Shown one piece after another: positions 9,762-41,456 of a DNA stretch of 64,000 bases; the first letter of the stretch is position 1; every line of letters begins with the position of its first letter. The stretch covers positions 62,001-126,000 of the forward strand of contig NZ_JACIJH010000002.1 in the NCBI RefSeq assembly GCF_014199295.1. The letters are read 5' to 3'. The position numbers and the translations under genes are program-made. Below the pieces are notes generated by a model, which did no database searches, was not told the DNA's origin, and was given only the letters and a program-made list of their open reading frames with translations. Source of the DNA: Sphingopyxis panaciterrulae (GTDB lineage Bacteria > Pseudomonadota > Alphaproteobacteria > Sphingomonadales > Sphingomonadaceae).

Positions 9762-9817
9762 GCTGTTATCGGCCGAAACCCGCCATCCGCCCACACGAAC
9801 GTGCGGCGACGGGTCCC

Positions 9818-12298: not shown

Positions 12299-12720
12299 CG
12301 CCCGTCTCCCTTCAACGGGTTGCCGATCGACCAGAGGTGGCCGAACGGGTCTCTGACCTGCGCGTAGCGGTCGCCCCAGAACATGTCCTCGGGCGCCATC
12401 ACCGACGTCGCGCCGGCCTCGATCGCGCGGCCGTACCAGCGGTCGGTGTCGTCGACCTGCAGATGGAGCACCGTGCCGGCGGGCTCGGGCGCGGGACTGC
12501 CCGTATATTCGGGAAAATCGTCGTGCATCATCAGCGACGCGCCGTTGATATGGACATGCGCGTGCATCAGCCGCTCGCCGTCGTCGGCGGGCTGGCGCAC
12601 CACCTCGGTCGCGCCGAACGCCTTGCCGTAAAAGTCGATCGCATCCTTGGCGCGCTTGTCGCGAATCGTGAGATGCGGGGTCAGGCCGCCGGTCGGCGCC
12701 TGGTTCGCGGGGGTCGTCAT
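12295..12720 (-). CDS. VOC-family glyoxalase/bleomycin-resistance-like protein
   Basis: 141 residues, one VOC module pair of beta-alpha-beta-beta-beta units. It shows LTIRDKRAKDAIDFYGKAFG at the start, HVHINGASLMMHDDFPEYTG in the middle and DPFGHLWSIGNP at the end. The substrate is unknown. It overlaps the next VOC gene by four bases (ATGA). A family B repeat separates it from the upstream double-VOC gene. Confidence 0.87.
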   Translation of the reverse strand: MTTPANQAPTGGLTPHLTIRDKRAKDAIDFYGKAFGATEVVRQPADDGERLMHAHVHINGASLMMHDDFPEYTGSPAPEPAGTVLHLQVDDTDRWYGRAIEAGATSVMAPEDMFWGDRYAQVRDPFGHLWSIGNPLKGDGR

Positions 12721-12734
12721 CGTCTCTCTCCTCT

Positions 12735-12857
12735 AATCTCTCTCCCCTTCAGGGGAGAGATGCGAAGGCTTGGCGGCTTTGCCGCCTAGCCGGAGTTGAG
12801 AGGGGCGCGGCATAGGCGGCCCCCTCTCCCAACCCTCTCCCCTGAAGGGGAGAGGGC
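12735..12857. repeat. Palindromic intergenic repeat, family B, copy 2
   Basis: Hairpins at about 12739-12760 and 12833-12856 (CCCTCTCCCC TGAA GGGGAGAGGG) flank an interior containing GGCTTGGCGGCTTTGCCGCC. This matches the internal core of the element at 5533-5697. On the plus strand the second hairpin is followed by five T, but the flanking genes are on the minus strand, so this is not a terminator for them. Confidence 0.82.
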
Positions 12858-12860
12858 TTT

Positions 12861-13658
12861 TTATCGCCGCGGTCCGACCAGCCCGAACGCCGCGCCCTGC
12901 GGGTCGACGCCGTTCATCGCGAACTCGCCGCCGGGGATTTCCATCGGTTCGTTGGTGATCGTGCCGCCGTTCGCGGTGATCGCCGCGGCGGCGCGGTCGA
13001 TGTCGTCGACCCCGATATAATAGGACCACATCGCCGCCGGCACGCCGGGCATCAGCCCCATGACGGCGCCGATCCCGACCTCGCCCAGTTGCAGGAAGCG
13101 ATAGGCGCCCATGTCGCTCATGTCGAACGCGCCCTCCTGCCCCCAGCCGAAGTGCTTGCGGTAAAAGGCGATCGCGGCGTCGGGGTCGCTGGTCATCAGC
13201 TCGTTCCAGCGCACATGCTGCGCCTCGGTCACCGAAAACACGTCGCTGTCCCTATCCTCCATCCCGGCGGGCGGGATCGGGTTCATGACATAGAAGACCG
13301 CGCCTTGCGGGTCCGACAGCATCGCGATGCGCCCGACGGGCAGGTCGGTCGCGGGCATGTGCACCGCGCCGCCGTCGGCCTCGATCGCCGCGATCGTCGC
13401 ATCGACGTCGGGAGTGTAGAGATAGCCCATCCACGCCGGCCGCGCCCCGCCCGCCAGCATGTCGGCATTGAGCGCCAGCACGCCGCCGGCATTGCCGCCG
13501 TCCGAGCGCCCGATCATGCGATAGTCGACACCGCTCGCCGCGGGGTCCGAATGCGCCGCGATCGTCCAGCCGACGACCGCGCCGTAAAAGCGCGCCGCGC
13601 CGTCGGGGTCGCTGGTCATCAGCTCGTACCAGATGAAACTGCCCTTGGGATTGGTCAT
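12861..13658 (-). CDS. Two-domain VOC-family protein
   Basis: 265 residues with two tandem VOC domains. Each begins with the same pattern (IWYELMTSDPDGAARFYGAV near residue 9, and RWNELMTSDPDAAIAFYRKH near 150) and each ends with DPQGA (near 117 and 256). The pattern is shared with extradiol-dioxygenase-like and CFP-32-type proteins. It overlaps the upstream DUF899 gene by four bases. Function is not predictable beyond probable binding of a small molecule. Confidence 0.88.
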   Translation of the reverse strand: MTNPKGSFIWYELMTSDPDGAARFYGAVVGWTIAAHSDPAASGVDYRMIGRSDGGNAGGVLALNADMLAGGARPAWMGYLYTPDVDATIAAIEADGGAVHMPATDLPVGRIAMLSDPQGAVFYVMNPIPPAGMEDRDSDVFSVTEAQHVRWNELMTSDPDAAIAFYRKHFGWGQEGAFDMSDMGAYRFLQLGEVGIGAVMGLMPGVPAAMWSYYIGVDDIDRAAAAITANGGTITNEPMEIPGGEFAMNGVDPQGAAFGLVGPRR

Positions 13659-14386
13659 CGTCTTTCTCCTTCATAGCTCAGGCTCGGGAAGAAATTGCCC
13701 CGCCCCTCGGGCGTCATGTCGAGCAGGCCCCACAGCGGATCGACGAGGTCGCCGGCGCGGTGGTGCTGGCCGGGATCTTCGGGCGCATAGGCCATTTCGC
13801 TCGCCCAATGATGCCGGATGGCATCGCCGTCCTTGCAGAAGACGTTGAAGATCGTCTCGTCCCAATCCTCGCCTTCGCCCATGCCACGCTCGGCACGTTT
13901 CGCCGCCGACAACCGGCGCGTGTCGCCGAAATAATCGGCCGAATAGCGGCCCTCGACGTCGGACAGGAAGCGCAGGTGCGGCCAGCGCCGCTCCTTCGCC
14001 CAGGCTTCGAGCCGCGCGATCGGCGATTTGGCGACGACATAGAGCGGGGCGCGCTGCCCGACGTGGCGGGCGCTGCCGTCGATCGCGTCGAGCATGTGCG
14101 TACAGCCGGGACAGGGCATGTCGCGTTCGGGCCCGAACATGAAGCTTTGCAGGATGATGCTCGACTTGTCCCCGAACAGCTCGGACAGCCGGACCGTTTC
14201 GGGGCGTTGATACGCGCCGATGCGCTCGAAGGCATAATCCTCGGGCACCGCGCCGCCGGGCGGCAGCGCCCGCCGCTGCGCCGCGACCGCCTCGATCTGC
14301 CGCCTCAGCGCGATCTCGGCGTCGAGCAGCGCGGCGCGCGCCTCGCGATAATCGGCGTTTTCGTTCGGGAAGGTCAGATGGTGCAT
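13655..14386 (-). CDS. DUF899-family thioredoxin-like protein
   Basis: 243 residues. DUF899 features are present: an N-terminal helix (NENADYREARAALLDAEIAL), then LSELFGDKSSIILQSFMFGP, a single pair of Cys in DMPCPGCTHMLDAID (about 88-102) and DWDETIFNVFCKDGD near the end. The fold is thioredoxin-like; these proteins are linked by context to stress responses but have no firm biochemical role. The ATG at 14386 begins MHHLTFPN. It is four bases into the next gene (ATGA) and part of the TetR-headed block. Confidence 0.86.
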   Translation of the reverse strand: MHHLTFPNENADYREARAALLDAEIALRRQIEAVAAQRRALPPGGAVPEDYAFERIGAYQRPETVRLSELFGDKSSIILQSFMFGPERDMPCPGCTHMLDAIDGSARHVGQRAPLYVVAKSPIARLEAWAKERRWPHLRFLSDVEGRYSADYFGDTRRLSAAKRAERGMGEGEDWDETIFNVFCKDGDAIRHHWASEMAYAPEDPGQHHRAGDLVDPLWGLLDMTPEGRGNFFPSLSYEGERR

Positions 14387-27618: not shown

Positions 27619-30342
27619 TCAGAGCTTCAGCTTGGCACCGAAGCTCAGATAGCGGCCGACCACGTCATAGTGAGCGCTGTAGGTCGTCGTGATCAGCGGC
27701 GGGTTCCTGTCGAAGACGTTTTTGACATTCGTGAAGAAGGTGAACTTTTCGCCCACGTGGAACTGCGCCCCCAGGTCGAGATACACCCGCGCGCCGATGT
27801 CGCCGTTCACGATATCCAACTGGTCGTTGAACTGTCCGCCCCCGGCATAGCGCAGGCGCGCATCGACCCCGAGCGTTTCGCTCTGATAGCTGACGCTGAA
27901 AATACCCCGCCATTTGGGCAGGCCGCTGAGCACCGAATCGCCGACATTGCCGGAGACATCGCGCCGGGTTGACCCGGTGTCGGTGATGAGCTTGTCGACA
28001 TAGGTCGCAAGAGCCCGGAAATTCAGCGAACCGCCGCTGGACAGCGGAAGCCGGTACGACATTTCAAGGTCGAATCCGCTCGTCTCGAACTTGGCGATGT
28101 TCTGGGCCAGGGCATAGACGGTCGTGATCGTGCCGGTGCCGTCGCGGATTATGCGGTCGCAGGCGGCCGTATCGCCGGCGGCACATGCCGCCGTGATGTC
28201 CGCCGCGTCGGGTGTCGCGATCGCATTGCCGATGTCGATGCTGTAATAATCGACCGAGAGCGCCAGTCCCGGAACGAAGGACGGCGAATAGGAGCCGCCG
28301 ACCGTCCAGCTCTTCGCGACCTCGGGCACCAGATCCGCGTTGCCGCCGCTGAAGATCGTGGCCGTCGGATTGCTGTCATAGTCCGGATCGGCGTCGCGGC
28401 CCGCGCTGTCGTTATCGACGACGGGGCGGATGTTGATCGAATTGACCGCGAACAAATTGCCGATGCTCGGTGCCCGGATATCGCGCGACCGCGTCGCGCG
28501 GAGGAGAAGGTCGCCAAAGAGGCGCGCGGTGCCGCCGATCTTCCACGACCAGATGCCGCCGCTGAGGCTATAGTCGGAATAGCGCGCCGCACCGTTCGCT
28601 TCGACGTCGATACCGTCGGTTTTCACCAGCGGTACCAGCGCTTCGACGAAGGCTTCCTTGACGTTGAAGCCGCCTTCGAGGGGATCGTTGAAGATCGGCG
28701 TGCCGAAGACGCCCGCGGTGTCCAGTTCGCCGATCGATTCGGACTGCTCTTCCCAGCGCGCTTCGGCGCCCAGCGCGACCGATACCGGGCCCGCCCAGAG
28801 CGAGAAGGGATCGCCCTGCAACCGGACTCCGACCGAATCGAGCTTGCTGACGCTCTTGGACATCTGGGTTCCGGTGACATAGTTCACTGCGTCGGCCGAC
28901 GGCGCGACCTCCCCGAAGGGATTGAACGGCACGCAGGCCGGATCGTCGTTGGCGGGATCGGCGTCCGCATTGACCGCGCAGACGATATTGCCCCCCGATT
29001 CCACCGCATCGATCGCGCGAAGGAAATTGGCCGGGATCGACGAGTTGTAGAATCGGGAATTGCTGTCGAGTTCGCCGTGACTGTAGTGCGCGTCATAGGT
29101 CCAGCCGCCGCCGATACTGCCCTCGACCCCGAAGGCGATCTCCTTCGTCTCGCGCTGCGCGTCGAAGCGGAGGAGGAAGGCGTCGCGGGACATGCGGCCA
29201 AGAGTGAAGGAGGTCTCGCCGGCATCCGCGAGCTGCTGCTGGATAGCGGGCGACAGAAAGGCGTTGGTCGCCGAGACATTGAACAGAAGGACCGACGACG
29301 CCGGGTCGGGGAAGAAGGGCTGATTCACTTTCGTGCGGCCATAGGCGGCATCGACCCAGAATTTCGTATCGCCCACGTCGTAGGACAGCCGGGCATAGCT
29401 TCCCAGCCGATCGAGCGGGCTGCCGACGATCAGCGTGTCATAGAGGCTGAAGAAGTCGCCCGGCCCGGCCGGCCGCAGGCTTCCGTCGGGGTTGAACGTC
29501 TGACCGGCCAGTGGGCCGCTCAGGACGGTTCCGCCGAAGGTGATCGGTGCCAGATCGTCGACGTTTGGCTGCAACTCGCGCTGCCCGCCGCCGATATTGA
29601 CGAGGCCGGCGCCGAACCATGGGCGGTCGTCGCGACCGCTGACGCCGATCCCCTCGTCCTTCAGATATTCGGCGCCGATCATGAAATGACCCGCTCCGCC
29701 CGCGAAGCTCGTCCCGAACGCGCCGTCGAGACGATAGCGGAAGCCGTCGCCGCGCGACGAAATGCCCGTCTCGGCGCCCAGTTGCAGCCCGTCGAGCTTG
29801 TCGTTGAGGATGATGTTCACGACGCCGGCAACGGCGCCGGACCCCCATGCGGCGGACGCGCCGCCCGTCACCAGTTCGACCCGCTCGACAAGGTTCGTCG
29901 GCACGAAATTGAGGTTGTTGTCGCCGATGAAGCGCCGGCCGTTGACGAGCGTCAGGGTCCGGGAGGTGCCGAGGCCGCGAAGCTCGACCGGCGCCGTGCC
30001 GCTCGTGGTGTTGCCGATCGACTGGTTGGCCGAGACCGAGTTGCGGATCTGGGGCAGTTCGTTGAGCGCCTGCTGAAGATTGACCGCAGCGGCCTGGCGA
30101 AATTCGGTGGCGCCCAGAACCGTGGTCGGCGTGGGCTGGTCGAAACCATCGCGCTGAATGCGCGATCCGGTGACGACGATATCGTTGCCATTGTCCGGCT
30201 CCTCGACCGCCTGGTCAGCGGACGCCGTCTGCGCCGCCGCGGGCAGTGCCGTCAGCAGACCCGCGAGCAGCGCAGCGGCGCTGGCCTCGCGAACGAAGAT
30301 ATGACCGAGCTTCCCGGAATTCCTGTGCATCATCCACCCCAT
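27619..30342 (-). CDS. TonB-dependent outer-membrane receptor
   Basis: 907 residues. A signal peptide (about 1-38, ending LPAAAQ) is followed by a TonB-box-like DIVVTGSRIQRDGFDQ and the plug domain (about 65-180, with ELRGLGTSRTLTLVNGRRF and AAWGSGAVAGVVNIIL). The 22-strand barrel ends in the terminal aromatic pattern YDVVGRYLSFGAKLKL. Receptors of this style in sphingomonads import peptides, glycans or siderophores. It is divergent from an operon of peptidases and D-amino-acid enzymes, which points to a peptide-like ligand; that part is inference. Confidence 0.92.
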   Translation of the reverse strand: MGWMMHRNSGKLGHIFVREASAAALLAGLLTALPAAAQTASADQAVEEPDNGNDIVVTGSRIQRDGFDQPTPTTVLGATEFRQAAAVNLQQALNELPQIRNSVSANQSIGNTTSGTAPVELRGLGTSRTLTLVNGRRFIGDNNLNFVPTNLVERVELVTGGASAAWGSGAVAGVVNIILNDKLDGLQLGAETGISSRGDGFRYRLDGAFGTSFAGGAGHFMIGAEYLKDEGIGVSGRDDRPWFGAGLVNIGGGQRELQPNVDDLAPITFGGTVLSGPLAGQTFNPDGSLRPAGPGDFFSLYDTLIVGSPLDRLGSYARLSYDVGDTKFWVDAAYGRTKVNQPFFPDPASSVLLFNVSATNAFLSPAIQQQLADAGETSFTLGRMSRDAFLLRFDAQRETKEIAFGVEGSIGGGWTYDAHYSHGELDSNSRFYNSSIPANFLRAIDAVESGGNIVCAVNADADPANDDPACVPFNPFGEVAPSADAVNYVTGTQMSKSVSKLDSVGVRLQGDPFSLWAGPVSVALGAEARWEEQSESIGELDTAGVFGTPIFNDPLEGGFNVKEAFVEALVPLVKTDGIDVEANGAARYSDYSLSGGIWSWKIGGTARLFGDLLLRATRSRDIRAPSIGNLFAVNSINIRPVVDNDSAGRDADPDYDSNPTATIFSGGNADLVPEVAKSWTVGGSYSPSFVPGLALSVDYYSIDIGNAIATPDAADITAACAAGDTAACDRIIRDGTGTITTVYALAQNIAKFETSGFDLEMSYRLPLSSGGSLNFRALATYVDKLITDTGSTRRDVSGNVGDSVLSGLPKWRGIFSVSYQSETLGVDARLRYAGGGQFNDQLDIVNGDIGARVYLDLGAQFHVGEKFTFFTNVKNVFDRNPPLITTTYSAHYDVVGRYLSFGAKLKL

Positions 30343-30415
30343 TTTTCAACTCGACCGCTGCTGGGCCGATCTTCCCTTGGCGAATGTGGCATAATGTCTC
30401 TCATGGGACAATAAG

Positions 30416-30429
30416 TTTCTTATAAGAAA
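30416..30429. promoter_or_regulatory. 14-bp perfect palindrome upstream of the TonB receptor
   Basis: TTTCTTATAAGAAA is a perfect palindrome 74 bases upstream of the receptor start, in an AT-rich stretch unusual for this genome. The size and position suit a dimeric repressor or activator. No regulator gene is adjacent. Confidence 0.5.
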
Positions 30430-30513
30430 AATTAAGCCTATCTTTGACGGCGGATGCATATGGAGGTCTGCTGAGGCTGGATATCGAATCATGTCGGGGG
30501 TGGGGATTGGCTG

Positions 30514-30771
30514 ATGCCACGCCTGCGCCTGCTGCTTGCTCCGCTTCTCGCGACCGCCTTGGCGGCGCAGGATCTTTCGGCCGATGTGCTTGAGGGCGAG
30601 CGGGCGACGCTCGCCGAATCCCCGATCGCCTCGTCCAATTTCCCCACATTCGTGCACAACCTGAACACGGGCGGCAACGATGAGCGCGAGAGCAAGGGAG
30701 CGATTGCCACGAACAGCGTTCGTCACGCGCCGGGCCACCAATCCTGTGTGGAGTTGCCGGCGGTGCGGTGA
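30514..30771 (+). CDS. Possible small secreted protein (uncertain)
   Basis: 85 residues in the 525-base divergent region 30343-30867, which otherwise holds only promoter elements. The N-terminus MPRLRLLLAPLLATALAAQ looks like a signal peptide; the rest is polar with a single Cys and no recognised domain. By a rough count about four fifths of third codon positions are G or C, as in real genes here, and a G-rich stretch precedes the ATG. Frames on the other strand are also open, so this may be chance. Confidence 0.35.
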   Translation: MPRLRLLLAPLLATALAAQDLSADVLEGERATLAESPIASSNFPTFVHNLNTGGNDERESKGAIATNSVRHAPGHQSCVELPAVR

Positions 30772-30811
30772 GCGATGCCGCCTTCCCCGGGTGAAAGGGG
30801 ATTGACCGATC

Positions 30812-30825
30812 CCAATTGGGATAAT
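30812..30825. promoter_or_regulatory. 14-bp perfect palindrome upstream of the peptidase operon
   Basis: ATCCCAATTGGGAT is a perfect palindrome 42 bases before the M19 gene. A -35-like TTGACC (30805-30810) sits immediately before it, so a bound protein would cover the promoter. A further TTGGGA/TCCCAA pair (30819-30824 and 30833-30838) overlaps it. The sequence differs from the palindrome on the receptor side. Confidence 0.5.
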
Positions 30826-30867
30826 ATCGTCCCAAGTAGAAAATATGAATAGATCAAAGGGGGTGAG

Positions 30868-32010
30868 ATGCTTCTTTCTCGACGGCAGGCGATATGCGGT
30901 GCGGGCGCGGCCATCGCCGCCCCCTTGGCGGCCCCCTATGTCGCGCGCGCGCATTTCCAGATCAATCCGGCGACGAACCGCGTCTATTCGAAGCGGGCGA
31001 TAGAGCTGGTGCAGCGCGCGGTCGTGATTGATATGCTCGCGCCGATCAAGATCGACTTCAGCCCTGAATATTACGCCAAGGCGCTGAGCGAAAAGGAGGC
31101 CGCGGACTTCCGGGCGAGCGGCATCACCGCCATCCATCACGCGGTCGGCCTCGGCGGCCCCACCGCGAAGGAGCAGGCGCTCAGCTTCTTTGCGATCTGG
31201 GGCAATTTCGTCGCGCGCAACAGCCATGTCTTCACGGGCGTCGACAAGTTCGCCGATATCCTGCGCGCCAAGCGCGACGGCAAGGTCGCGGTGATCATGG
31301 GCCTGCAGAATGCGGATCATTTCCTGCGCCCCGCTGACGTCAAGACCTTCTACCAGATCGGCCAGCGCTGCGCCCAGCTCACCTACAATTCGCAGAATCG
31401 CATCGGATCGGGGTCGACCGACCGCGTTGACGGCGGCGTGAGCGACTTCGGCGCGCGGATCATCGAGGCGATGAACGCGGTCGGGATGCTGGTCGACGTC
31501 TCGCACAGCGGCGACCGCACGACCCTCGACGCCATCGACATCTCGGCCAAGCCGATCGCGATCACGCACAGCAACTGCCGCGCGCTGATCGACCACCCCC
31601 GCGTCAAGACCGACGAGGCGATCAAGGCGCTCGCCGCCAAGGGCGGCGTGATGGGCATCACGGGCGTGCGCAACTTTGTCAGCAAGACCGACCCGACCAC
31701 CATCGTGAACTATGTCGACCATATCGATCATGTCGTGAAGCTGGTCGGCATCGACCATGTCGGCATCGGCACCGATTCCGACCTCTACGGCTATGACGAC
31801 ACGTCGCCGGAGATGAACAAGATGCTGCGCGGCGCCTACAAGGACAGCTATGCCTTCCGCGAGAAGATCGACATCGACGGTTTCGATCACCCGCTCAAGA
31901 TGTTCGACCTGACCGAGGAACTGCTGCGCCGCGACTATTCCGACGCGAACATCCTCGCGGTGCTCGGCGGCAATTTCCAGCGCCTGCTGACCGCGACCTG
32001 GGGCGGCTGA
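30868..32010 (+). CDS. M19 (renal-dipeptidase-like) family protein with altered metal site
   Basis: 380 residues. A Tat-like signal (SRRQAICGAGAAIAAPLAAPYVARA) predicts export. The fold motifs of M19 dipeptidases are recognisable: GKVAVIMGLQNADHF, VDVSHSGDRTTLDAI, AITHSNCRAL, DHVGIGTDSDLYG. Compared with human renal dipeptidase, the two later His ligands (213, 234) and the Asp (303) are kept. The N-terminal DGHND is DMLAP (55-59), the bridging Glu is Gln147, and the substrate-side His is Tyr173. M19 enzymes cleave dipeptides, often with a D residue at the second position; activity here is uncertain. GGGGGTGAG lies just before the ATG. Confidence 0.85.
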   Translation: MLLSRRQAICGAGAAIAAPLAAPYVARAHFQINPATNRVYSKRAIELVQRAVVIDMLAPIKIDFSPEYYAKALSEKEAADFRASGITAIHHAVGLGGPTAKEQALSFFAIWGNFVARNSHVFTGVDKFADILRAKRDGKVAVIMGLQNADHFLRPADVKTFYQIGQRCAQLTYNSQNRIGSGSTDRVDGGVSDFGARIIEAMNAVGMLVDVSHSGDRTTLDAIDISAKPIAITHSNCRALIDHPRVKTDEAIKALAAKGGVMGITGVRNFVSKTDPTTIVNYVDHIDHVVKLVGIDHVGIGTDSDLYGYDDTSPEMNKMLRGAYKDSYAFREKIDIDGFDHPLKMFDLTEELLRRDYSDANILAVLGGNFQRLLTATWGG

Positions 32011-32053
32011 CCGTGGCGATCGCACCCGTTCCCCTCCTGCCGCGAGCTGCACG

Positions 32054-33100
32054 ATGAATGCCCCCACCGACCGCATGGCGAGCGCGCTCCTGCTCCCGCA
32101 GCCCTATGTCCTGTTCCTCGGCGACACGACGGTCCGTGGCTATGCCAAGACCGCGTTCGGGCTCCGCGACTGGGCGCCCGAAAAATGCGTCGGCGAACTC
32201 CGCCTTCCCGGCGCCACGGTCACCGCCGGTCTCGACGCGGTGACGGCGGCGGAGGCGCGGGCGCGGGGCGCGCGGGCGCTGGTGATCGGTGTCGCCAATC
32301 AGGGGGGGGTGATCCCCGCCAGTTGGCGCGTTTCGCTGATCGAGGCGCTAGAGGCCGGGCTCGATCTGATCGCCGGCATGCACATGCGCCTCTCCGATAT
32401 TCCCGAACTGGTCGAAGCGGCACGGCGCCTCGGCCGGCAACTGATCGACGTCCGTGTCCCGCCCCGGCAGATTCCGGTGGGCACCGGGCGCAAGCGCAGC
32501 GGCAAGCGGCTGCTCACCGTCGGCACCGATTGCGCGCTCGGCAAGAAATATACGGCGCTCGCCCTGTTTCGCGCCTTTGAGCGGCGCGGCATTGCGGCGG
32601 ATTTCCGCGCCAGCGGGCAGACCGGCATCATGATCGCGGGTGGCGGCATCCCGATGGACGCCGTGGTTTCGGACTTCGAGGCCGGCGCCGCCGAACTGCT
32701 GTCGCCCGATGCCGATGCGGATCATTGGGACATCATCGAAGGGCAGGGGGCGCTGACCCATCCCGCCTATGCGGCGGTGTCGCTGGGGTTGCTTCACGGC
32801 AGCCAGCCCGACGTCTTCGTCGTCTGTCACGAACCGGGCCGTACCGAGATGCTCGGCATGCCGGGCTTTCCGGTGACCAGTGTCGAGGAGATCACCGAGC
32901 TTACCACGCGCCTCGGCCGCCGGACGAATCCGGCGATCCGCTGCGGCGGCTATGCATTCAACACCGCGGCGATGACCGACGATGCGGCAGCCGAACTCAT
33001 GGCGAAAGAGAGCCGGCGGCTCGGCTTGCCGGTTGCCGACCCGATGCGCGGCGGACCGGCGTTCGAGGCGCTGGTCGCGTCCTGCCTGAGCGCGGATTGA
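32054..33100 (+). CDS. DUF1611 / DgcN-like protein (putative D-amino-acid N-acetyltransferase)
   Basis: 348 residues. An N-terminal DUF1611_N domain (about 15-140, YVLFLGDTTVRGYAKTAFGL) and a P-loop-containing DUF1611 domain (about 150-345) are present, with Walker A-like GTDCALGKKYT at 157-167. DgcN, a family member, has been described as making N-acetyl-D-glutamate, which DgcA then racemises. No dgcA-type epimerase gene is next to it here. It has no signal peptide and is 43 bases after the M19 gene, so it would act on products once they reach the cytoplasm. Confidence 0.85.
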   Translation: MNAPTDRMASALLLPQPYVLFLGDTTVRGYAKTAFGLRDWAPEKCVGELRLPGATVTAGLDAVTAAEARARGARALVIGVANQGGVIPASWRVSLIEALEAGLDLIAGMHMRLSDIPELVEAARRLGRQLIDVRVPPRQIPVGTGRKRSGKRLLTVGTDCALGKKYTALALFRAFERRGIAADFRASGQTGIMIAGGGIPMDAVVSDFEAGAAELLSPDADADHWDIIEGQGALTHPAYAAVSLGLLHGSQPDVFVVCHEPGRTEMLGMPGFPVTSVEEITELTTRLGRRTNPAIRCGGYAFNTAAMTDDAAAELMAKESRRLGLPVADPMRGGPAFEALVASCLSAD

Positions 33101-33170
33101 CGTTTCCCTTCGGCCCGGCGCGAAGGCGTCGGGTCCGACTCTTGTTCGACCCAGGCAGAGAGGTTCCTTC

Positions 33171-34652
33171 ATGTCCCGACGCTCGATTTGGTATCACGCC
33201 TTTGCTGCCGCGCTGCTCGGTGGCGCAGCGCTTCCGTCCGCGGTCATCGCCCAGGCGCAGCCGGACGCCGCCTATACCGTCGCGCCCGAACGGCTCGCGG
33301 GCCTCGCCGATTTCGTCGATGGCGTGATGGCGCAGCAGATCGCGACGCGCGAGGTCGCGGGCGCGGTCGTCACCGTCGTCCATCAGGGCCGCGTGCTGTT
33401 CGCGCGCGGCTATGGTTTCGCCGATGTCGACAAGGGGGTCGCGGTCGATGCGCAGACGACCCTGTTCCGGCCCGGATCGGTGTCCAAGATGTTCACCTGG
33501 ACCGCACTGCTGCAGCAGGTCGAGGCCGGCCGCGTCAGTCTCGATGCCGATGTGAACGATTATATCGACTATCCTATCCCCGATTTCGAAGGCCAGCCGA
33601 TCCGGGTGCGCGACCTGCTGTCGCATACGCCGGGCATGAGCGACATCGGCGGCATCACCGCGCCCGCGGTCGACAAGCTCGTCCCCTATGGCGAGTGGAT
33701 GAAGACGCATATCCCGCGGCGGCTGTGGCCCGCGGGGACGGAGGTGTCCTATTCCAACTACGGCGCCGCGCTGGCCGGCTATATCGTCGAGCGCGTTTCG
33801 GGCGAACCCTTCGCCGACTATGTCGAGCGCCATATCTTCGCGCCGCTCGGCATGGGGTCGACGACCTTTCGCGAACCGCTGCCCGCCGCGCTCGCCCCGC
33901 GCATGGCGAACGGCTATCGGGTCGAAAACGGGCGGTTCGTCGCCGAGCCCTTCGAACTGTTCAGCAACATCATGCCTGCCGGTTCGGGAACGTCGAGCGC
34001 GCCCGACATGACGCGGTTCATGATGGCGATGCTGAATGGCGGTGCGATCGGCGGGGCGCGCATCCTGAAACCCGAATCGGTCGCGCTGCTGATGCGCGAT
34101 TCGCACGCCAACGCCCCCGACCTGCCCGGCATGGCGCACGGCTTCTTCGTCGTGCGCGAGGCCGGACCGCGCCTCGTCGGCCATGGCGGCAATACCGGCG
34201 ACTTCCATTCGAACATGATCCTTGCGCCCGAGGCGGGCCTCGGCTTCTTCGTTTCCGAAACCGGCGGACAGGGCAGCTATGGCGGGCGCACCGAACTGAC
34301 CGAGGCGCTGATCGGCCGGCTCTTTCCGCAGACCCCGGCGCCGCGTGTCGCCGCGCCGGCGGGCGAGGCGGTGCCGCTGGGCGCCTATCGCGGCAACCGG
34401 CGCGATTATAACCGCCCGCCCAATCCCGAGCATGACCTGAAGATCAGCGCCGCAGGGGCCGATGCGATCATCGTCAGTGGCGGCGGCAAGACAAGCTATT
34501 GGGAACGGGTCGGTCCGCTGCGGTTCGAACAGGTGACCGGCGCGCGCGCCGGCGGCCCTTACGAACAACTCCGCTTCCATGGCGGGGACGGGCACTGGCG
34601 CCTGTCCTTCACCTCGCAGCCGCATGTCGCATACCACCAGGTTCAGCCCTGA
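33171..34652 (+). CDS. Exported S12-family serine hydrolase (beta-lactamase-like)
   Basis: 493 residues. Signal peptide (about 1-29), then a beta-lactamase/D-aminopeptidase fold (about 45-390) with the nucleophile motif S103-V-S-K106, the Y194-S-N196 motif, and GHGGNTG as the third element (about 342). A C-terminal extension of about 100 residues follows. S12 enzymes include D-Ala-D-Ala peptidases, D-aminopeptidases and esterases, many of which prefer D residues. It is the third gene of the operon, 70 bases after the DgcN-like gene. Confidence 0.9.
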   Translation: MSRRSIWYHAFAAALLGGAALPSAVIAQAQPDAAYTVAPERLAGLADFVDGVMAQQIATREVAGAVVTVVHQGRVLFARGYGFADVDKGVAVDAQTTLFRPGSVSKMFTWTALLQQVEAGRVSLDADVNDYIDYPIPDFEGQPIRVRDLLSHTPGMSDIGGITAPAVDKLVPYGEWMKTHIPRRLWPAGTEVSYSNYGAALAGYIVERVSGEPFADYVERHIFAPLGMGSTTFREPLPAALAPRMANGYRVENGRFVAEPFELFSNIMPAGSGTSSAPDMTRFMMAMLNGGAIGGARILKPESVALLMRDSHANAPDLPGMAHGFFVVREAGPRLVGHGGNTGDFHSNMILAPEAGLGFFVSETGGQGSYGGRTELTEALIGRLFPQTPAPRVAAPAGEAVPLGAYRGNRRDYNRPPNPEHDLKISAAGADAIIVSGGGKTSYWERVGPLRFEQVTGARAGGPYEQLRFHGGDGHWRLSFTSQPHVAYHQVQP

Positions 34653-34671
34653 CCGATCGAGGAGACGCGCG

Positions 34672-36630
34672 ATGAAATTGCTGATGGCCCTCGCCCTCGC
34701 GAGCCTTCCCCTTCCCGCGCTGGCCCAGGCGCCCGCCGCCGCCGACACCGACGGCAAGACGGCGGCGGGGGTGCAATATGTCCAGCCGAAGGACTGGACC
34801 GCGACGACGCGCGGCCCCGCCGTCCTGTTCGTCTCACCCGAAAAGGATCTGCGCGCCGTGGTGGTCGACGTCGGCGCGGCGGCCGATGGCGCGGCGGCGG
34901 CGGCGAAGGCGTGGTCGCTGTATCGCCCGGACGCCGCTCCGACGGTGCGCCTCGCCACGCCGGGCCGGCCGGGCGAGGACTGGGACGAACGGCTGAACCT
35001 TTCTTATGAAACGCTGCCGACCGAGCGTGCGACGCGCTCGGCGCTGGCGCTGCGCAAGGGCGCGGCGTGGACCGTGCTGATCGTCGATGGTTCCGCGGGA
35101 ACCGCCGCCAAGCGATCGGCGGCGATGTCGGTCGTTCGGGAGGGGCTGCACCCGGTCGGTTATCAGACCGAAAGTTTCGCGGGCAGGACCGCGCATCGGT
35201 TGACCCCCGACCGCGTTCGGGCGCTGCGCGACTTCGTCGCCGAAAGCGCGCGCGAACTGGGCGTGCCCGGCGTCGGCCTTGCACTGATCGATCAGGGCAA
35301 GGTCGTGTGGCAGGGCGGCATCGGCGTGCGCGCGCTCGGGTCGCCCGAGCCGGTCGACGAGCATACCAAATTCATGATCGCGTCGAACACCAAGGGCCTG
35401 TCGACGCTGCTTCTTTCGGTGCTCGCCGATGAAGGCAAGTTGCGCTGGGACCAGAAAGTCACCGACCTCTATCCGGCCTTCCGCCTCGGCAATGACGAGG
35501 TCACGCGGTCCGTGCTCGTCCGCCATCTCGTCTGCGCCTGCACCGGGCTGCCGCGAAAGGATTATTCCTTCATCCTCGCCGACCCCGGCGCACCGGCTGC
35601 CGCCACCTTCAACCAGCTTGCCGATACCATGCCGACCAGCCAGTTCGGCGACCTGTTCCAATATAATAATCAGATGGCTTCGGCCGCGGGCTATGTCGGC
35701 GGTCACCTTCTCTATCCGGAGATGGAGATCGGTGCCGCCTATGATCGCGCGATGGAGGAAAAGATCTTCAAGCCGCTCGGCATGACGGACAGCACCTTCG
35801 ATTATGCAAAGGGCATGGCGGGCAACTGGGCGGCCCCGCACGGCCTTGATGTCGATGGCCGTGTGACGCTGATGAGCAACGACTTCAATTTCGCACCCTA
35901 TCCCTATCGTCCTGCGGGCGCCGCCTTTTCCACCACCGCGGACATGGTTCGCTATGTTCAGCTCGAACTGTCGAAGGGCATCACGCCCGAGGGCGAGCGG
36001 GTGGTCAGCGAGGCGAACCTGGTCGAGCGGCGGAAGAAGGGCGTGCAGGTGGGGCCAGGAAGCTGGTACGGCATGGGCCTGTTCCAGCGCGATGCGTGGG
36101 GCATTCCCGTCGTGACCCACGGCGGCACCCTCCTCGGCTATCACAGCAACTGGTATGCGCTGCCGGAGGCGGGCGTCGGCGCGGTGATCCTGACCAATGC
36201 CGATCCGGGCGCGGCGATGCTCGGGCCGTTCCTGCGCCGCCTTCTGGAAGTCCTCTATGACGGTCAGCCCGAGGCGGCCCGCGACGTCGCGACGGCGGCG
36301 GCGCGGATCAAGGCGCAGGCCGCGGCACGCCGAGAGCGATTGACCTTTCCCGGCGATCCCGCCGTCCTCGCGAAGCTGGCCCGCCATTATCGCGATTCCG
36401 AGGTCGGCCAGATCAGCGTCGGCGAGCAGGGCGGACAGAAATGGATCAAGGCCGGATTCGTCGAGGGGCCGATCGCGACCCGCGCCAATCCCGACGGCAG
36501 CGTCTCGATCGTCTCGGTCGGGCCGGGCAATATCGGGGTCGAGGCGCTGGTCGGGACGGCGGACGGCAAGCGCACGCTGACGATCAACGACGGCCAGCAG
36601 CACCAATATGTCTATGTCGAGGACCAATAG
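34672..36630 (+). CDS. Exported S12-family serine hydrolase with N-terminal extension
   Basis: 652 residues. Signal peptide (about 1-20), then an extra domain (about 30-165) that I do not recognise, then the S12 domain (about 175-515) with S238-N-T-K241, Y331-N-N333 and VVTHGGTLLGYHS. A C-terminal domain of about 110 residues closes the protein. It starts 19 bases after the previous hydrolase, with GAGGAG upstream. The two enzymes differ in architecture, so they are not a recent duplication and may split substrates. Confidence 0.9.
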   Translation: MKLLMALALASLPLPALAQAPAAADTDGKTAAGVQYVQPKDWTATTRGPAVLFVSPEKDLRAVVVDVGAAADGAAAAAKAWSLYRPDAAPTVRLATPGRPGEDWDERLNLSYETLPTERATRSALALRKGAAWTVLIVDGSAGTAAKRSAAMSVVREGLHPVGYQTESFAGRTAHRLTPDRVRALRDFVAESARELGVPGVGLALIDQGKVVWQGGIGVRALGSPEPVDEHTKFMIASNTKGLSTLLLSVLADEGKLRWDQKVTDLYPAFRLGNDEVTRSVLVRHLVCACTGLPRKDYSFILADPGAPAAATFNQLADTMPTSQFGDLFQYNNQMASAAGYVGGHLLYPEMEIGAAYDRAMEEKIFKPLGMTDSTFDYAKGMAGNWAAPHGLDVDGRVTLMSNDFNFAPYPYRPAGAAFSTTADMVRYVQLELSKGITPEGERVVSEANLVERRKKGVQVGPGSWYGMGLFQRDAWGIPVVTHGGTLLGYHSNWYALPEAGVGAVILTNADPGAAMLGPFLRRLLEVLYDGQPEAARDVATAAARIKAQAAARRERLTFPGDPAVLAKLARHYRDSEVGQISVGEQGGQKWIKAGFVEGPIATRANPDGSVSIVSVGPGNIGVEALVGTADGKRTLTINDGQQHQYVYVEDQ

Positions 36631-36644
36631 AGGGAGACAAGCGC

Positions 36645-38270
36645 ATGATCCGGTCGATCGCACTCATCTTCGTGCCGCTGTTGACGGGGGCCGCGGCGCC
36701 CGCGCCCGACCCGGCCTATGACATCGTCATCCGGGGCGGCCGCGTGCTCGACGGCGCGGGCAATCCCTGGGTCGCCGCCGATGTTGCGATCGCGGACGGA
36801 CGAATCGTGCGCGTCGGCGTGGTCGACGGCGCGGGAAAGCAAGAGATCGATGCGCGCGGACGCTATGTCTCGCCGGGCTTCATCGACATGCTCGACCAGT
36901 CCGGGCGCGTGCTGCTTCGCGACGGATCGGCGGCCAGCAAGCTGCGCATGGGCGTGACGACGCTGATCGCCGGCGAAGGCGGCACCGCGGTCCCCGCCGG
37001 CGAAATCGCGGGCTATTTCAGCAAGCTCGAGCAGCAGGGGATCGCGGTCAATTTCGGCACCTATTACGGCGCGATCCAGGCGCGCGTGAAGGTGATGGGC
37101 GATGCGGCCGGTGCGCCTAACGAGGATCAGCTCCGCGCGATGGAGGGCGAGGTGCGGACCGCGATGAAGGCCGGTGTCTTCGGCATCTCATCCGCGCTCA
37201 TCTATTCCCCCGCCAGCTTCCAGTCGACCGCCGACCTCGCCCGGTTGGCGGCGATACCGGGCAAGTGCGGCGGCTTCTATGCAACGCACATGCGCGACGA
37301 AAGCGACAAGCTGCTCGCCGCCATCGACGAGGCGGTGACGATCGGCGAACGCAGTGGCGCGAAGGTCGAGATTTTTCACATCAAGGCCGCCTATGCGCCG
37401 CTGTGGGGCAAGCTGATGCCGCAGGCGATCGCGCGGGTCGAGGCGGCACGGGCGCGCGGCCTCGACATCGGCGCGAACATCTATCCTTATCGTGCCGGCG
37501 GCACCGGGCTCGACGTGACCGTTCCGACGCATGTCTTCGCCAAGGGTCGCGAGGCCGCGTATGCGGCCGTGCGCGATCCGGCCGTGCGCAAGCAGCTCAA
37601 GAAGGAACTCGCCGCGGGGCCGCAGGCCGACTGGTCGAACCTCGTCCACGCCTCCGGCGGCTGGCAGAACGTCGTGTTGGCAAACGCCCATAACGACCGC
37701 TATCGGCAGTTCCACGGCAAGAATTTTGCCGAGATCGGCAAGGCACTCGGCAAGGATCCCGCCGACGCGGCCTGGGACATCTGGCTTGCCGCGCTGCCGG
37801 CGCGGGCGGGCGCGCTCTATTTCCTGATGGACGACGCCGACATCGACCTCGCGATGAAGCAGCCCTGGGTCAGCATCGGCACCGATGCGGCCGTATCGGA
37901 CAGCACCGCCGACCCGGCGAGGGCGGGGCGGCCGCATCCCCGCGCCAACGGCACCTTTCCGCGCATCATCGCGGACTATGTGCGCGAGCGCGGCGTGCTG
38001 ACGCTGCCGGACGCGATCCGCAAGATGACCGGCTGGCCCGCGCAGCGGCTTGGGCTGGCCGATCGGGGGCTGCTGCGTCAGGGCATGCGGGCCGACGTCG
38101 TGATATTCGACCTTGCGACCATCCGGGACCGCGCGACCTATGAGGAGCCCACCGCCGTGCCCGAGGGGATAGGCGATGTGATCGTCAACGGCGTCGTCGC
38201 CGTCGCGGGAGGGCAGGTGACCGGATCGCGGAGCGGCAACGTCCTGCGCCATCCGTGCCCCAATGCCTGA
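36645..38270 (+). CDS. Exported N-acyl-D-amino-acid deacylase-like amidohydrolase with altered metal site
   Basis: 541 residues. Signal peptide (about 1-20), then an amidohydrolase of the D-aminoacylase family: IVIRGGRVLDGAGNPW, DARGRYVSPGFID, FYATHMRDES, VEIFHIKAAY, SIGTDAAVSDS, HPRANGTFPRII. The late ligands are kept (His215, His245, Asp414). The usual HxH after GFID is replaced by L83-D-Q85, and the usual Cys of GNCG is Gly112 (GEGG). Canonical enzymes release free D-amino acids from N-acyl forms. This is the last gene of the operon, 14 bases after the S12 gene. Confidence 0.85.
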   Translation: MIRSIALIFVPLLTGAAAPAPDPAYDIVIRGGRVLDGAGNPWVAADVAIADGRIVRVGVVDGAGKQEIDARGRYVSPGFIDMLDQSGRVLLRDGSAASKLRMGVTTLIAGEGGTAVPAGEIAGYFSKLEQQGIAVNFGTYYGAIQARVKVMGDAAGAPNEDQLRAMEGEVRTAMKAGVFGISSALIYSPASFQSTADLARLAAIPGKCGGFYATHMRDESDKLLAAIDEAVTIGERSGAKVEIFHIKAAYAPLWGKLMPQAIARVEAARARGLDIGANIYPYRAGGTGLDVTVPTHVFAKGREAAYAAVRDPAVRKQLKKELAAGPQADWSNLVHASGGWQNVVLANAHNDRYRQFHGKNFAEIGKALGKDPADAAWDIWLAALPARAGALYFLMDDADIDLAMKQPWVSIGTDAAVSDSTADPARAGRPHPRANGTFPRIIADYVRERGVLTLPDAIRKMTGWPAQRLGLADRGLLRQGMRADVVIFDLATIRDRATYEEPTAVPEGIGDVIVNGVVAVAGGQVTGSRSGNVLRHPCPNA

Positions 38271-38551
38271 TCGACAGCGGTGCGATGAAATAGCCCGGGG
38301 ACAGTCCACAGCCTGCTCCAGCCCGATCATGGCATCAGCATCTCTGCTCTCCCGGGAATGACGAGAATTTAACCGCCTCCGACTCCAGGCGGACGCCGCC
38401 TTGCGCCTGTCCCGATATGGAGCGGAAACGGCGCTATGCCGTGCCTCCCGATGATCCCGATTATCCATTTGGTAAGCAGTTTGGCCCTAGTGGGACGATA
38501 CCCGCCGCGCATCCGTGGGCCGCGTTGCGGGTTCGAAGAGGGGGTTCGACC

Positions 38552-40201
38552 ATGCGAGGGACCGTCATCCGCCGCATCCGGCAGGGGGCAAGAAAGCTGC
38601 TTCGCGACCAGCGGGGCAATGCCTTCATGCTGACCGCCGCGGCGGTCGTGCCGCTGATCGGTATCGTCGGATCGGCGGTCGACATCGGCCGCGCCTATAT
38701 GACCCAGCTTCGCCTGCAGCAGGCCTGCGACGCGGGCGTGCTCGCGGGACGGCGCTCGATGGCCGGCGGCACCTATACCGACGCCGCCGAGGCTGAAGCG
38801 AACAAGATGTTCAACTTCAACTTTCCCGCCGGCATCTATGGCAGCAGCGGTATTAACTTCGATTCGCAGCAGCCATCGACAGGCGCCTCCGATGTTACCG
38901 GCACCGCGCATGCGACGCTGCCGACGGCGCTGATGTATATTTTCGGCAAGGACCAGTTTGCCCTGACTGCGAACTGCACCGCGAAACTGGAGATTTCAAA
39001 CGTCGATGTGATGCTGGTGCTCGACGTGACCGGGTCGATGCGAGGCACGCGGATCGCAGGATTGCAGACGGCGGCAAAGGATTTCTTCGAAACTCTGAGC
39101 GGTGCGGATATCGGCGATGGGCAACTGCGTTTTGGCGTCGTTCCCTATAGCAGTACCGTCAATGTAGGCCAGATTCTCTATAATGCAGATCCCTCCTGGC
39201 TGTCCGAATCCGTTACACTGCCTTCACGGAGCGGTGACGGATGGAAGGAAGTGGAGGAATGTGGCTGGCAGGGCTCCAAATGGAACCGGGAATGGGTTTG
39301 CGAGAAAAAGAACCGATATTTCTATCGGTATGAAAATCGTACCCTGCCCGTTGGGTCGATCGCGCCCGGCAGCGAACTGACTTTCAATACGGGATCTAAC
39401 GGGAGTGATGAAACCGCAGTCTGGGACGGCTGCATCATGGAACGCCAGACGACGGTATTCGGCCCGAGCGAGACGGCGCCTTCGACGGCTTTTGACATGG
39501 ATATCGAGTCGTCCCCCACATCGGATGATGCCACCAAATGGAAGCTGTTTCTTCCCGCCTTCACTTATGACCGCGGACGGACGGATCCGGAGACGTCGAG
39601 CACGGACAGGGCAAGCCTTGCCGAATATGGAGGCGACACAGCCGCCTGTCCGGTCGCCGCGATGAAATTGAAGAAGGTGGTAGAGGACGGCACGGTCGTT
39701 TCCGACGACGAGATCGACGAGACCGCCTTCGACGATTATATCGACGACCTGGAAGCCAAAGGCTTCACCTATCATGACGTCGGCATGGCGTGGGGCGCGC
39801 GGCTGATTTCGCCGACCGGCCTGTTCGCAAGCGATAATGCGAAGGCGGAGAAAAACGACCGGCCCATCAGTCGTCACATCTTGTTCATGACCGACGGTGA
39901 GATGAATACGCCGCGGGACAATCTGTCGCATCAGGGGCTGGAGCGTTCGCTACCGCGCATCGGCGCCACCGACAACAAGGATGCCATCGCGCGCCACAAC
40001 AACCGCTTCCGGCAGTTGTGTGAGCGGGCGAAGAGGCAAGGCATCACCATCTGGGTCGTGTCTTTCGGGGTCAGCAGCAACAGCAACCTGAACAGTTGCG
40101 CGTCGTCCGGACAGGCTTACGAATCGAACGATTCGGATGAACTGAACGAAAATTTCCAGGCTATCGCGCGGCAGATCTCGAAGCTGAGGCTATCGCAATG
40201 A
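38552..40201 (+). CDS. TadG-like pilus-assembly protein with von Willebrand factor A domain
   Basis: 549 residues. A short basic N-terminus leads to a TadE/G-type hydrophobic helix (about 27-47: AFMLTAAAVVPLIGIVGSAV), then DIGRAYMTQLRLQQACDAGVLAG, typical of the family. A VWA domain begins near 150 with the metal motif VLDVTGSM; it carries a long insertion before FMTDGEMNTP. TadG-like proteins are secreted or membrane-tethered parts of Flp-pilus systems. The ATG at 38552 was chosen over upstream starts because it places the helix normally. The 281 bases before it show no gene. Confidence 0.87.
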   Translation: MRGTVIRRIRQGARKLLRDQRGNAFMLTAAAVVPLIGIVGSAVDIGRAYMTQLRLQQACDAGVLAGRRSMAGGTYTDAAEAEANKMFNFNFPAGIYGSSGINFDSQQPSTGASDVTGTAHATLPTALMYIFGKDQFALTANCTAKLEISNVDVMLVLDVTGSMRGTRIAGLQTAAKDFFETLSGADIGDGQLRFGVVPYSSTVNVGQILYNADPSWLSESVTLPSRSGDGWKEVEECGWQGSKWNREWVCEKKNRYFYRYENRTLPVGSIAPGSELTFNTGSNGSDETAVWDGCIMERQTTVFGPSETAPSTAFDMDIESSPTSDDATKWKLFLPAFTYDRGRTDPETSSTDRASLAEYGGDTAACPVAAMKLKKVVEDGTVVSDDEIDETAFDDYIDDLEAKGFTYHDVGMAWGARLISPTGLFASDNAKAEKNDRPISRHILFMTDGEMNTPRDNLSHQGLERSLPRIGATDNKDAIARHNNRFRQLCERAKRQGITIWVVSFGVSSNSNLNSCASSGQAYESNDSDELNENFQAIARQISKLRLSQ

Positions 40202-40794
40202 CGCGCAGCATCTCCTGGCTTCGTCGCCTGGGGCGCAGCGAACGCGGGGCCGCGATGATCGAGTTCGCGCTGACCGCGCCGCTCTTTCTTCTCGTCCTGA
40301 TGGGCGCATTCGACTATTGCTGGCAGATGTATGCGCAGCAGGTGCTGCAGGGCGCGGTGAGTAAGGCCGGGCGCGATTCGACGCTCGAGGCTTATGCAAG
40401 CAACCAGTCCGCGCTCGACACGATTGTTCGCGAGCAGGTGCAGCAGGTATTCGCCCATGCCGAGGTGAAGTTCACCCGCAAGGCCTATGACCGTTTCGAT
40501 CAGGTCGGCGTCGAGGAACGCTATACCGACGCGAACAAGAACGGCAGCTACGATACCGGCGAATGCTATGACGACAGCAATGGCAACGGTCAGTGGGACG
40601 CTGACCGCGGCCGCGACGGTAATGGCGGCGCCGACGATGTCATCCTCTATAGCGCGTCGATGACATTCGACCGCGTCCTGCCGGTATGGCGGATGCTCGG
40701 TCAACCGCAATCGACGACGCTGACCTCGACGACCGTGCTGCGCAACCAGCCCTTCGCCACCGGGTCCGATGCGCCCGCGGACACATGCGCATGA
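40198..40794 (+). CDS. TadE-like protein with Asp/Asn-rich segment
   Basis: 198 residues. RSERGAAMIEFALTAPLFLLVL (two halves, about 13-34) is the TadE signature with its conserved Glu, followed by the helix and a pseudopilin-like stalk. About residues 109-142 form an acidic stretch with two DxNxNG-type loops (DANKNGSYD and DDSNGNGQWD), like calcium-binding EF-hand or dockerin loops. It overlaps the TadG-like gene by four bases (ATGA). Confidence 0.87.
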   Translation: MTRSISWLRRLGRSERGAAMIEFALTAPLFLLVLMGAFDYCWQMYAQQVLQGAVSKAGRDSTLEAYASNQSALDTIVREQVQQVFAHAEVKFTRKAYDRFDQVGVEERYTDANKNGSYDTGECYDDSNGNGQWDADRGRDGNGGADDVILYSASMTFDRVLPVWRMLGQPQSTTLTSTTVLRNQPFATGSDAPADTCA

Positions 40795-41456
40795 TCCGCT
40801 TCGTCCCTCTCCGCCGCCGCGTCCGCGATTCAATCGCCCGGTTCACGCGCGACGCGCGCGCCACCGTGCTCATCGAAATGGCCTTCGCCATCCCCTTCCT
40901 CGTCCTCGTCGGCTTCGGCGGGCTGGAGATCGCCAATCTGACGCTCACCCAGACGCGCATCAGCCAGATAGGGCTCAACGCCGCCGACAACGCCTCGCGC
41001 ATCGCTGCCGGCAGCAATCTGGCGCAGCCACAGGTGCGCGAGACCGACATCAACGAGGTGTTCGCCGGCGTCGAAACGCAAGCCGGCAATCTGGATTTCA
41101 AGACCCACGGCCGCATCATCCTGTCGAGCCTCGAACGCAACGACGACGGCGGGCAGTGGATACACTGGCAGCGCTGCTATGGCGATCTCGATGTCGAATC
41201 GAGCTATGGTGAGGCCGGCGACGGTGAGGAGGGGACTGATTTCCCCGGTATGGGATTCGAGGGTGCCGAGGTGACCGCCGCTGCGGGAACGGCGGTGATG
41301 TTCGTCGAAATCTATTATGATTATCAGCCGTTGCTCTATGGCAAGGTGGTCGGCCAGCGCCGGATGCACTCGACCGCCGCCTTCAATATCCGCGAGGCGC
41401 GCGACCTGACGCAGGTCTATAATCCGTCGTCCGTCGCGGTTTCGAACTGCGACTGA
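40791..41456 (+). CDS. TadE-like protein
   Basis: 221 residues from the ATG at 40791, which overlaps the previous stop by four bases (ATGA), the same junction type as the preceding pair; an ATG at 40785 is also in frame. RATVLIEMAFAIPFLVLVGF (about 23-42) is the TadE signature with its Glu, followed by ISQIGLNAADNASRIA. No tadA, tadB or tadC genes are in the window, so the rest of the machinery must lie elsewhere or be absent. Confidence 0.85.
   Translation: MIRFVPLRRRVRDSIARFTRDARATVLIEMAFAIPFLVLVGFGGLEIANLTLTQTRISQIGLNAADNASRIAAGSNLAQPQVRETDINEVFAGVETQAGNLDFKTHGRIILSSLERNDDGGQWIHWQRCYGDLDVESSYGEAGDGEEGTDFPGMGFEGAEVTAAAGTAVMFVEIYYDYQPLLYGKVVGQRRMHSTAAFNIREARDLTQVYNPSSVAVSNCD

Follow-up and report, generated by a model that had tools for sequence, protein, structure and literature searches.

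A stretch of 64,000 nucleotides from the alphaproteobacterium Sphingopyxis panaciterrulae (contig NZ_JACIJH010000002.1, positions 62,001 to 126,000 of the forward strand; hereafter the window, whose numbering is used throughout) carries six genes that a first-pass annotation, made from the letters alone, had read as a single system for uptake and breakdown of compounds containing D-amino acids. The six-gene arrangement is real, and all six proteins pass their Pfam cut-offs. A gene for a TonB-dependent outer-membrane receptor (27619..30342, minus strand; TonB_dep_Rec_b-barrel and Plug domains over cut-off) is divergent from five plus-strand genes separated by gaps of 43, 70, 19 and 14 bp. The first of the five encodes a homologue of M19 dipeptidases belonging to a non-canonical subfamily (30868..32010; Peptidase_M19, 257 bits). 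Judged by eye, this protein has a leader of the twin-arginine (Tat) type, whose arginine pair is invariant in the 13 aligned sequences, the window's included. It is followed by a DUF1611 or DgcN-like enzyme (32054..33100; DUF1611 C and N domains), taken as cytoplasmic and showing no leader, and by two exported serine hydrolases of family S12 (Pfam Beta-lactamase): S12a (33171..34652), with SxxK, YxN and HxG present, and S12b (34672..36630), which also has the motifs and carries an N-terminal extension. The run ends with a D-aminoacylase-like amidohydrolase, again of a non-canonical subfamily (36645..38270; Amidohydro_3). Signal peptides were recognised by eye in S12a, S12b and the amidohydrolase; for the latter two, the start is the methionine preceding the signal peptide, chosen by eye within a longer open frame.

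The arrangement exceeds chance. The window DUF1611 protein has 574 relatives, of which the best 80 were taken together with at most 10 kb of flanking sequence at either end; counts among these loci are conditional, because the loci were picked by likeness to DUF1611. The order receptor (opposite strand), M19, DUF1611, S12a, S12b recurs in 12 of the 80 (L018-L026, L029, L033 and L039), so that the absence of joint conservation in related genomes, which the first-pass annotation had named as a refutation, is not what is observed. In these window-type loci, the enzymes are 72-93% identical, and the receptors (49-54%) occupy the same place in 12 of 12. The amidohydrolase gene is the variable member, found in four of the twelve (L018, L025, L026 and L029); among these four, only L029 has an epimerase gene interposed in its cluster. 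The block is kept while the flanks differ: eight flank proteins of the window (including GshA-, RsmE-, TadG- and UbiA-like ones, by eye) have no match in any of the 80 loci at an E-value of 1e-15, in a search that took in open frames of at least 100 codons and that recovers the eight proteins themselves as positive control. The cluster is directly followed, at 38417-41456, by a large Tad-like gene and two small ones with N termini like that of TadE (all judged by eye), none of which looks related to it.

The 68 other loci are organised differently. An epimerase gene is present in 63 of them, a permease-like gene in 63, and an S12 gene nearest to that of a second locus of the S. panaciterrulae genome, described below as the sister locus, in 64. 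A canonical-type M19 gene occurs in 41, an M19 gene of the window subfamily in 32, and both in 27. Overall, a gene resembling dipeptide epimerases or DgcA accompanies DUF1611 in 64 of the 80 loci. Linkage was also counted in 149 genomes, an even draw from the family in which related genomes are not independent and counts depend on thresholds. There, the window M19 protein finds 29 matches in 19 genomes (E-value 1e-40 or better), which split into 11 at 62-100% identity, the window's own counted, and 18 remote ones at 33-39%. A DUF1611 gene (E-value 1e-110 or better only) lies within 10 kb on the same contig for all 11 close relatives, at 250 bp or less for five of them, and for 0 of the 18 remote relatives. 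In ten of the genomes, the count took in weaker DUF1611 genes as well, and the 9 remote M19 relatives present there have none of these at 10 kb or less.

The nearest known pathway is the DgcN-DgcA pathway, reportedly described by Yu et al. in the ISME Journal in 2023. In the available parts of two articles, it is presented as a route of D-glutamate catabolism (PMC12363236, PMC10845958). The likeness lies in the DUF1611 enzyme and, at the sister loci, in an enolase-superfamily epimerase partner. The first-pass annotation had called the DUF1611 protein of the window DgcN-like and had pointed to the acetylation of D-glutamate by DgcN; such a transfer of activity is not supported by the scores. 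The genome carries three DUF1611 genes, that of the window, one at C2:432364 (the sister locus) and one on contig C14. Against the DgcN equivalog model NF041892, whose cut-off is 480 bits, the window protein scores 442.5 and the sister protein 453.7; the C14 protein, which served as control, reaches 520.1 and is thus a true DgcN, with a true DgcA beside it (433.4 bits for a cut-off of 400). The true pair is therefore encoded at the third locus. The window protein is 72.7% identical to the sister copy and 50.3% identical to the C14 DgcN; it matches the solved family member 7xrj with 344.8 bits, and the motif GTDCALGKKYT is invariant in 31 of 31 sequences. A gene of the MR_MLE (dgcA) type adjoins both other DUF1611 loci, not that of the window.

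Beyond DgcN and DgcA, the window and sister loci add genes for a receptor, S12, M19 and amidohydrolase proteins, and an XRE-cupin regulator. At the sister locus, the run consists of the regulator (opposite strand), an S12 gene, a DgcA-like epimerase also under its equivalog cut-off, a receptor, DUF1611, a permease-like gene (named by eye, without Pfam match), a second S12 gene and a canonical M19 gene. The receptors diverge: that of the window has no match to the sister receptor at an E-value of 1e-5, and its identity to the receptor of the C14 locus is 32%. The latter locus (L010; G000:C14:30000-49900, about 2400-14300) contains, next to the DgcN-DgcA pair, two D-aminoacylase-like genes retaining HxH, and by eye a receptor and MFS, symporter-like and LysR-like genes. 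It represents another type of D-amino-acid locus and lacks the operator discussed below (best matrix score 9.0); the regulon proposed here accordingly leaves it out.

The two metal-dependent families of the cluster had been credited with dipeptidase and D-aminoacylase activities from their family names. The active sites do not support either attribution in that form. M19 dipeptidases hold a binuclear metal site with an HxD motif and a bridging Glu among the ligands. Among the 46 sequences of the M19 subfamily to which the window protein belongs, itself counted, HxD is absent from 46 of 46, with DMLAP at its position in the window protein, and the bridging Glu is a Gln in 46 of 46; both remaining His and the Asp are retained in every member. 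In renal dipeptidase, the carboxylate of the substrate is bound by an Arg, which 44 of the 46 retain. In the other M19 group found at the same loci, HxD and Glu are present in 43 of 43. Compared with known M19 dipeptidases (renal dipeptidase 1itq, Sco3058, 2i5g), the window protein thus has the same fold, the two His and the Asp, but a replaced HxD and a Gln for the bridging Glu, a substitution shared by 2i5g. The predicted structure (mean predicted local distance difference test, pLDDT, of 83) superimposes on 2i5g with Z 41.1 and a root-mean-square deviation of 2.0 over 316 aligned residues, and on 1itq with Z 39.4; the model was used for the fold only, and metal geometry was not read from it.

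The amidohydrolase is likewise non-canonical. Among 33 sequences of its group, one of them truncated, HxH is absent from the 32 that can be evaluated (L029 retains His at the second place), and in all 32 of these Gly occupies the position of the zinc Cys and is preceded by Glu. None of the 33 lacks the two barrel His, the catalytic Asp or the Tyr, Lys and Arg that correspond to the carboxylate site. Alignments to D-aminoacylase 1rjp and N-acyl-D-glutamate deacylase 3gip display the HxH and Cys replacements directly, so that, relative to these enzymes and to PpOngB (9kb1), the protein is of the same family, with the same barrel His, Asp and carboxylate-site residues, but without HxH and zinc Cys and with a conserved Glu one position before the place of the Cys. 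Equivalence of the carboxylate-site residues to those in the available part of PMC12017989 was derived from D-aminoacylase alignments and spacing, not from a structure; the predicted structure of the amidohydrolase itself (mean pLDDT 62.6) was too poor and was not used. The same part of that article reports that mutating either His of the HxH of PpOngB abolished activity, and that zinc-ligand mutants, Cys included, had extremely low or no activity (PMC12017989). As judged from the alignments, the two subfamilies have each lost the metal ligands of strand 1 (HxD and HxH, respectively) and altered the ligand of strand 4; both proteins probably do not have the activities of their families in canonical form. 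The conservation of these changes speaks for an altered function and against decay. The catalytic motifs of the S12 enzymes, for their part, are retained: in the S12a group, Ser/Lys, Tyr/Asn and the motif His are found in 19 of 19 sequences and the first Gly thereafter in 16 of 19, and in the S12b group (17 sequences), Ser/Lys in the 16 that can be evaluated and YxN and HGG in all 17. A second amidohydrolase group (PGFINMLSWA), in which HxH is also absent, was seen beside loci of the sister type, near 1-2900 in L048, L049, L058, L062, L067, L072, L079, L084 and L087 and at 14997-16811 in L065.

A conserved element, TTTTCYRATYAGGAYNAT followed by TCC, stands upstream of these operons and would be an operator. 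Its 15-base core, with at most 2 mismatches, occurs 82 times in the 80 loci versus 6 times in a first-order Markov control of the same 1.6 Mb. A matrix was built from 55 training sites, all of them from loci that are not of the window type; its scores are therefore circular in those loci, and not circular in the window and the 12 window-type loci. In the window, its three best matches fall in the 525-bp gap between the receptor and M19 genes, whereas the best match in ten Markov shuffles does not exceed 14.1. The highest of the three, 20.7, marks a predicted operator (30819..30848, minus strand) that immediately precedes the M19 gene. The second and third best matches of the 64 kb, 17.4 and 15.7, overlap and define a second predicted operator (30406..30439) at the receptor end of the divergent promoter region, for which the basis includes the alignment with relatives. 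Spacings listed with that alignment come from stop-to-stop frames, and negative or large values among them do not represent true gaps. In 12 of 12 window-type relatives, the best matrix match likewise lies between the receptor and M19 genes. Exact copies of the element number two in the genome, and the sister locus holds both. One (C2:426870) lies at a distance of 15 bp from the regulator gene, and the other (C2:430007) precedes the gene for the receptor. An earlier candidate pattern, TGTCC-N5-GGACA, was dropped (27 window matches with at most 2 mismatches for 19.3 expected), after its one-mismatch matches had led to the better one; in the loci, TGTCC and GGACA give no exact match with a 4- or 5-base spacer and 11 with a 6-base spacer. 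A site near C2:245454, considered as an operator linked to the enolase superfamily, was rejected, as the genes around it appear unrelated and its score is 6.8. A general scan returned 3 sites resembling promoters, for 1.7 expected, and 8 resembling terminators, for 6.3 expected; this result was not used.

The candidate regulator is the XRE-cupin protein encoded beside the second DUF1611 locus (C2:426223-426855), 332 kb from the window cluster. An XRE-cupin gene accompanies 62 of the 80 loci, 14 of these genes having just 42-47% identity; L029 is alone among the 12 window-type loci in having one. The regulator is encoded in 13 of 13 genomes tested (66-100% identity), namely that of S. panaciterrulae, that of L045 and those to which 11 of the 12 window-type loci belong. 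Among the 149 genomes, 19 contain the regulator (E-value 1e-60 or better) and 21 the DUF1611 branch (1e-110 or better); both occur in 18, the regulator only in 1, DUF1611 only in 3 and neither in 127 (Fisher p = 3.5e-19, uncorrected for kinship). Within 10 kb, such a DUF1611 gene is found for 21 of 22 regulator genes, and a regulator gene for 22 of 30 DUF1611 genes. With at most 1 mismatch, the element occurs at 18 sites in 13 of the 149 genomes, versus 0 for the reversed pattern, and 13 of the 18 sites belong to 9 regulator-positive genomes, each within 3.3 kb of the regulator gene. From position only, we infer that the regulator would bind the operator and control its own gene. The XRE-cupin genes of 42-47% identity form a separate branch, near L030, L032, L038, L040 and ten further loci; the loci of this branch contain S12 and DUF1611 genes and mostly also permease-like, amidohydrolase and epimerase genes.

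Considering these properties, we propose, with a probability of roughly 0.55, that the six genes form a scavenging locus reaching from the outer membrane to the cytoplasm, devoted to D-amino-acid-rich peptides or N-acyl compounds and belonging to a two-locus regulon under the XRE-cupin protein. In such a model, the receptor would take the compound into the periplasm, where S12a and S12b would cleave it. Trimming of carboxyl-terminal or acyl-capped pieces would fall to the amidohydrolase and the Tat-exported M19 homologue, each with a reduced site holding a single metal or none. The product would then reach the cytoplasm through a transporter encoded elsewhere, and the DUF1611 enzyme would act on it, by analogy with DgcN through acylation of a D-acidic amino acid, before inversion by the DgcA-like epimerase of the sister locus. 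Both loci would respond to the regulator through the shared predicted operator. The order of steps, the substrate, the binding of regulator to operator and every catalytic activity are inferred here. Given the conserved association with DgcN-like and DgcA-like genes, D-acidic amino acids, whether free, N-acylated or within peptides, are the most likely target; the D-residues of the scavenged compounds would most likely be D-Glu, D-Gln, D-Asp or D-Asn. The receptor and the exported hydrolases suggest a larger precursor compound. The earlier picture is right in outline: a conserved, apparently co-regulated unit linked to DgcN- and DgcA-like genes agrees with a single D-residue pathway, even if the activities assigned to it had been taken from family names.

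Several observations weigh against this proposal. No inner-membrane transporter was recognised among the genes of the window locus, which leaves cytoplasmic import unexplained. No epimerase gene is found at the window locus either, the 5 MR_MLE matches of the genome all being elsewhere, and the DUF1611 protein falls short of the DgcN cut-off. Since residues needed in canonical relatives are missing, the M19 protein or the amidohydrolase could be inactive or perform other chemistry, and the divergence of the receptors among the window, sister and C14 loci means that their outer-membrane substrates may differ. As for the operator, the window site at 30823-30843 fits a 21-base pattern with 3 mismatches and is degenerate, and the 15-base core with at most 2 mismatches gives no match at the M19-side operator. 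The genome contains six further copies with 3 mismatches and no evident link, versus one match for the reversed pattern. An operator-like site on contig C9 (G000:C9:31408, L157) scores 19.1, above the receptor-side matches of the window; the open frames beside it suggest no link and include no evident D-amino-acid gene. Finally, 5 of the 18 sites with at most 1 mismatch are in 4 genomes without the regulator, and 10 of the 19 regulator-positive genomes have no such site.

An extension of the two-locus proposal may be imagined, which we hold more tentatively and at somewhat less than even odds. Sphingomonads would possess a second, unrecognised route for D-amino acids, with its own regulator and operator, a separate DgcN/DgcA-like pair, and two remotely related enzymes of the amidohydrolase superfamily in which strand-1 ligands would have been lost in parallel and strand 4 remodelled, leaving one metal or none, for action on the same family of substrates.

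Among the other explanations, salvage of peptidoglycan fragments fares best, although we consider it unlikely. The locus would handle cell-wall peptides of the L-Ala-gamma-D-Glu type, and the freed D-Glu would pass to the DUF1611 enzyme. Among solved structures, S12a and S12b match D-Ala-D-Ala carboxypeptidases and an alkaline D-peptidase, but their matches spread also over esterases, ClbP and beta-lactamases. In the same way, the sister-locus epimerase matches L-Ala-D/L-Glu epimerase 1jpd and the family protein 4gfi, yet it favours the DgcA model (364 bits for a cut-off of 400) over that of L-Ala-D/L-Glu epimerase (229 bits), both scores being under cut-off. Moreover, the window cluster shows no recognisable amidase, LD-peptidase or muropeptide permease.

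Breakdown of capped or cyclic natural products containing D-amino acids, as in the microcystin (mlr) pathway or the removal of prodrug caps, appears slightly less probable again. S12 enzymes of the ClbP type remove N-acyl-D-Asn prodrug caps, and ClbP is among the S12 matches mentioned above. The nearest known enzyme set is the mlr cluster of sphingomonads, in which, following the available parts of three articles, mlrB, mlrE and mlrF encode an S12 protein, an M19 dipeptidase and a D-aminoacylase (PMC6256522, PMC6563193, PMC7082461). The same three classes thus occur at the window, and they stand side by side in the mlr stretch L148. However, the window proteins are 28.5, 24.6 and 30.5% identical to MlrB, MlrE and MlrF, respectively, and belong to different subfamilies, so that the two sets have enzyme classes in common without being orthologous; unlike the window proteins, the M19 and D-aminoacylase members of the mlr set retain the canonical metal ligands. 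Furthermore, L148 has neither a DUF1611 match nor an operator (best score 4.3). The genome of Sphingosinicella microcystinivorans DSM 19791 (G001) has a gene for an S12 protein starting with MTATKL, followed by canonical M19 and D-aminoacylase genes; according to the available parts of the published record, MTATKL is the start encoded by an mlrB primer and the order mlrB-E-F was published for strain B-9 of the same species. This genome, which is also that of L070, is likely that of a peptide-degradation specialist: it has 15 M19 matches versus 5-7 in three other genomes searched alongside, and 18 amidohydrolase matches (some genes giving two rows) versus 3-5 in four others.

Least probable of all is an unrelated substrate such as a siderophore or an acyl ester, with a non-hydrolytic or binding M19 protein and amidohydrolase and a DUF1611 enzyme other than DgcN, since the lost metal ligands, the sub-threshold DgcN score and receptor matches to haem, siderophore and B12 models (NCBIfam), all so far under cut-off that no substrate was read from them, are set against the tight linkage to DgcN-like and DgcA-like genes and the retained carboxylate-site residues of the amidohydrolases. 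A theme of D-acidic amino acids or of peptides with D residues, as in the two-locus proposal, is the most economical reading of a conserved unit linked to such genes.

What is new here is the loss of metal ligands in the M19 and amidohydrolase subfamilies, the candidate operator and regulator, and the distinction of these DUF1611 proteins from true DgcN. DUF1611 together with a D-aminoacylase was not found in the literature searched, though the combination may still have been published. Sets of mlr-like enzymes also exist at loci unrelated to the mlr cluster. D-amino-acid material is described, in the available parts of the articles on DgcN-DgcA, as a pool of organic matter that is degraded slowly (PMC12363236, PMC10845958). 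If the proposal is true, a widespread environmental group would possess a compact, regulator-defined gene set for using this material, and the operator would be a ready reporter for discovery of its substrate. Two enzyme subfamilies now filed as dipeptidase and D-aminoacylase would then have active sites at odds with those names.

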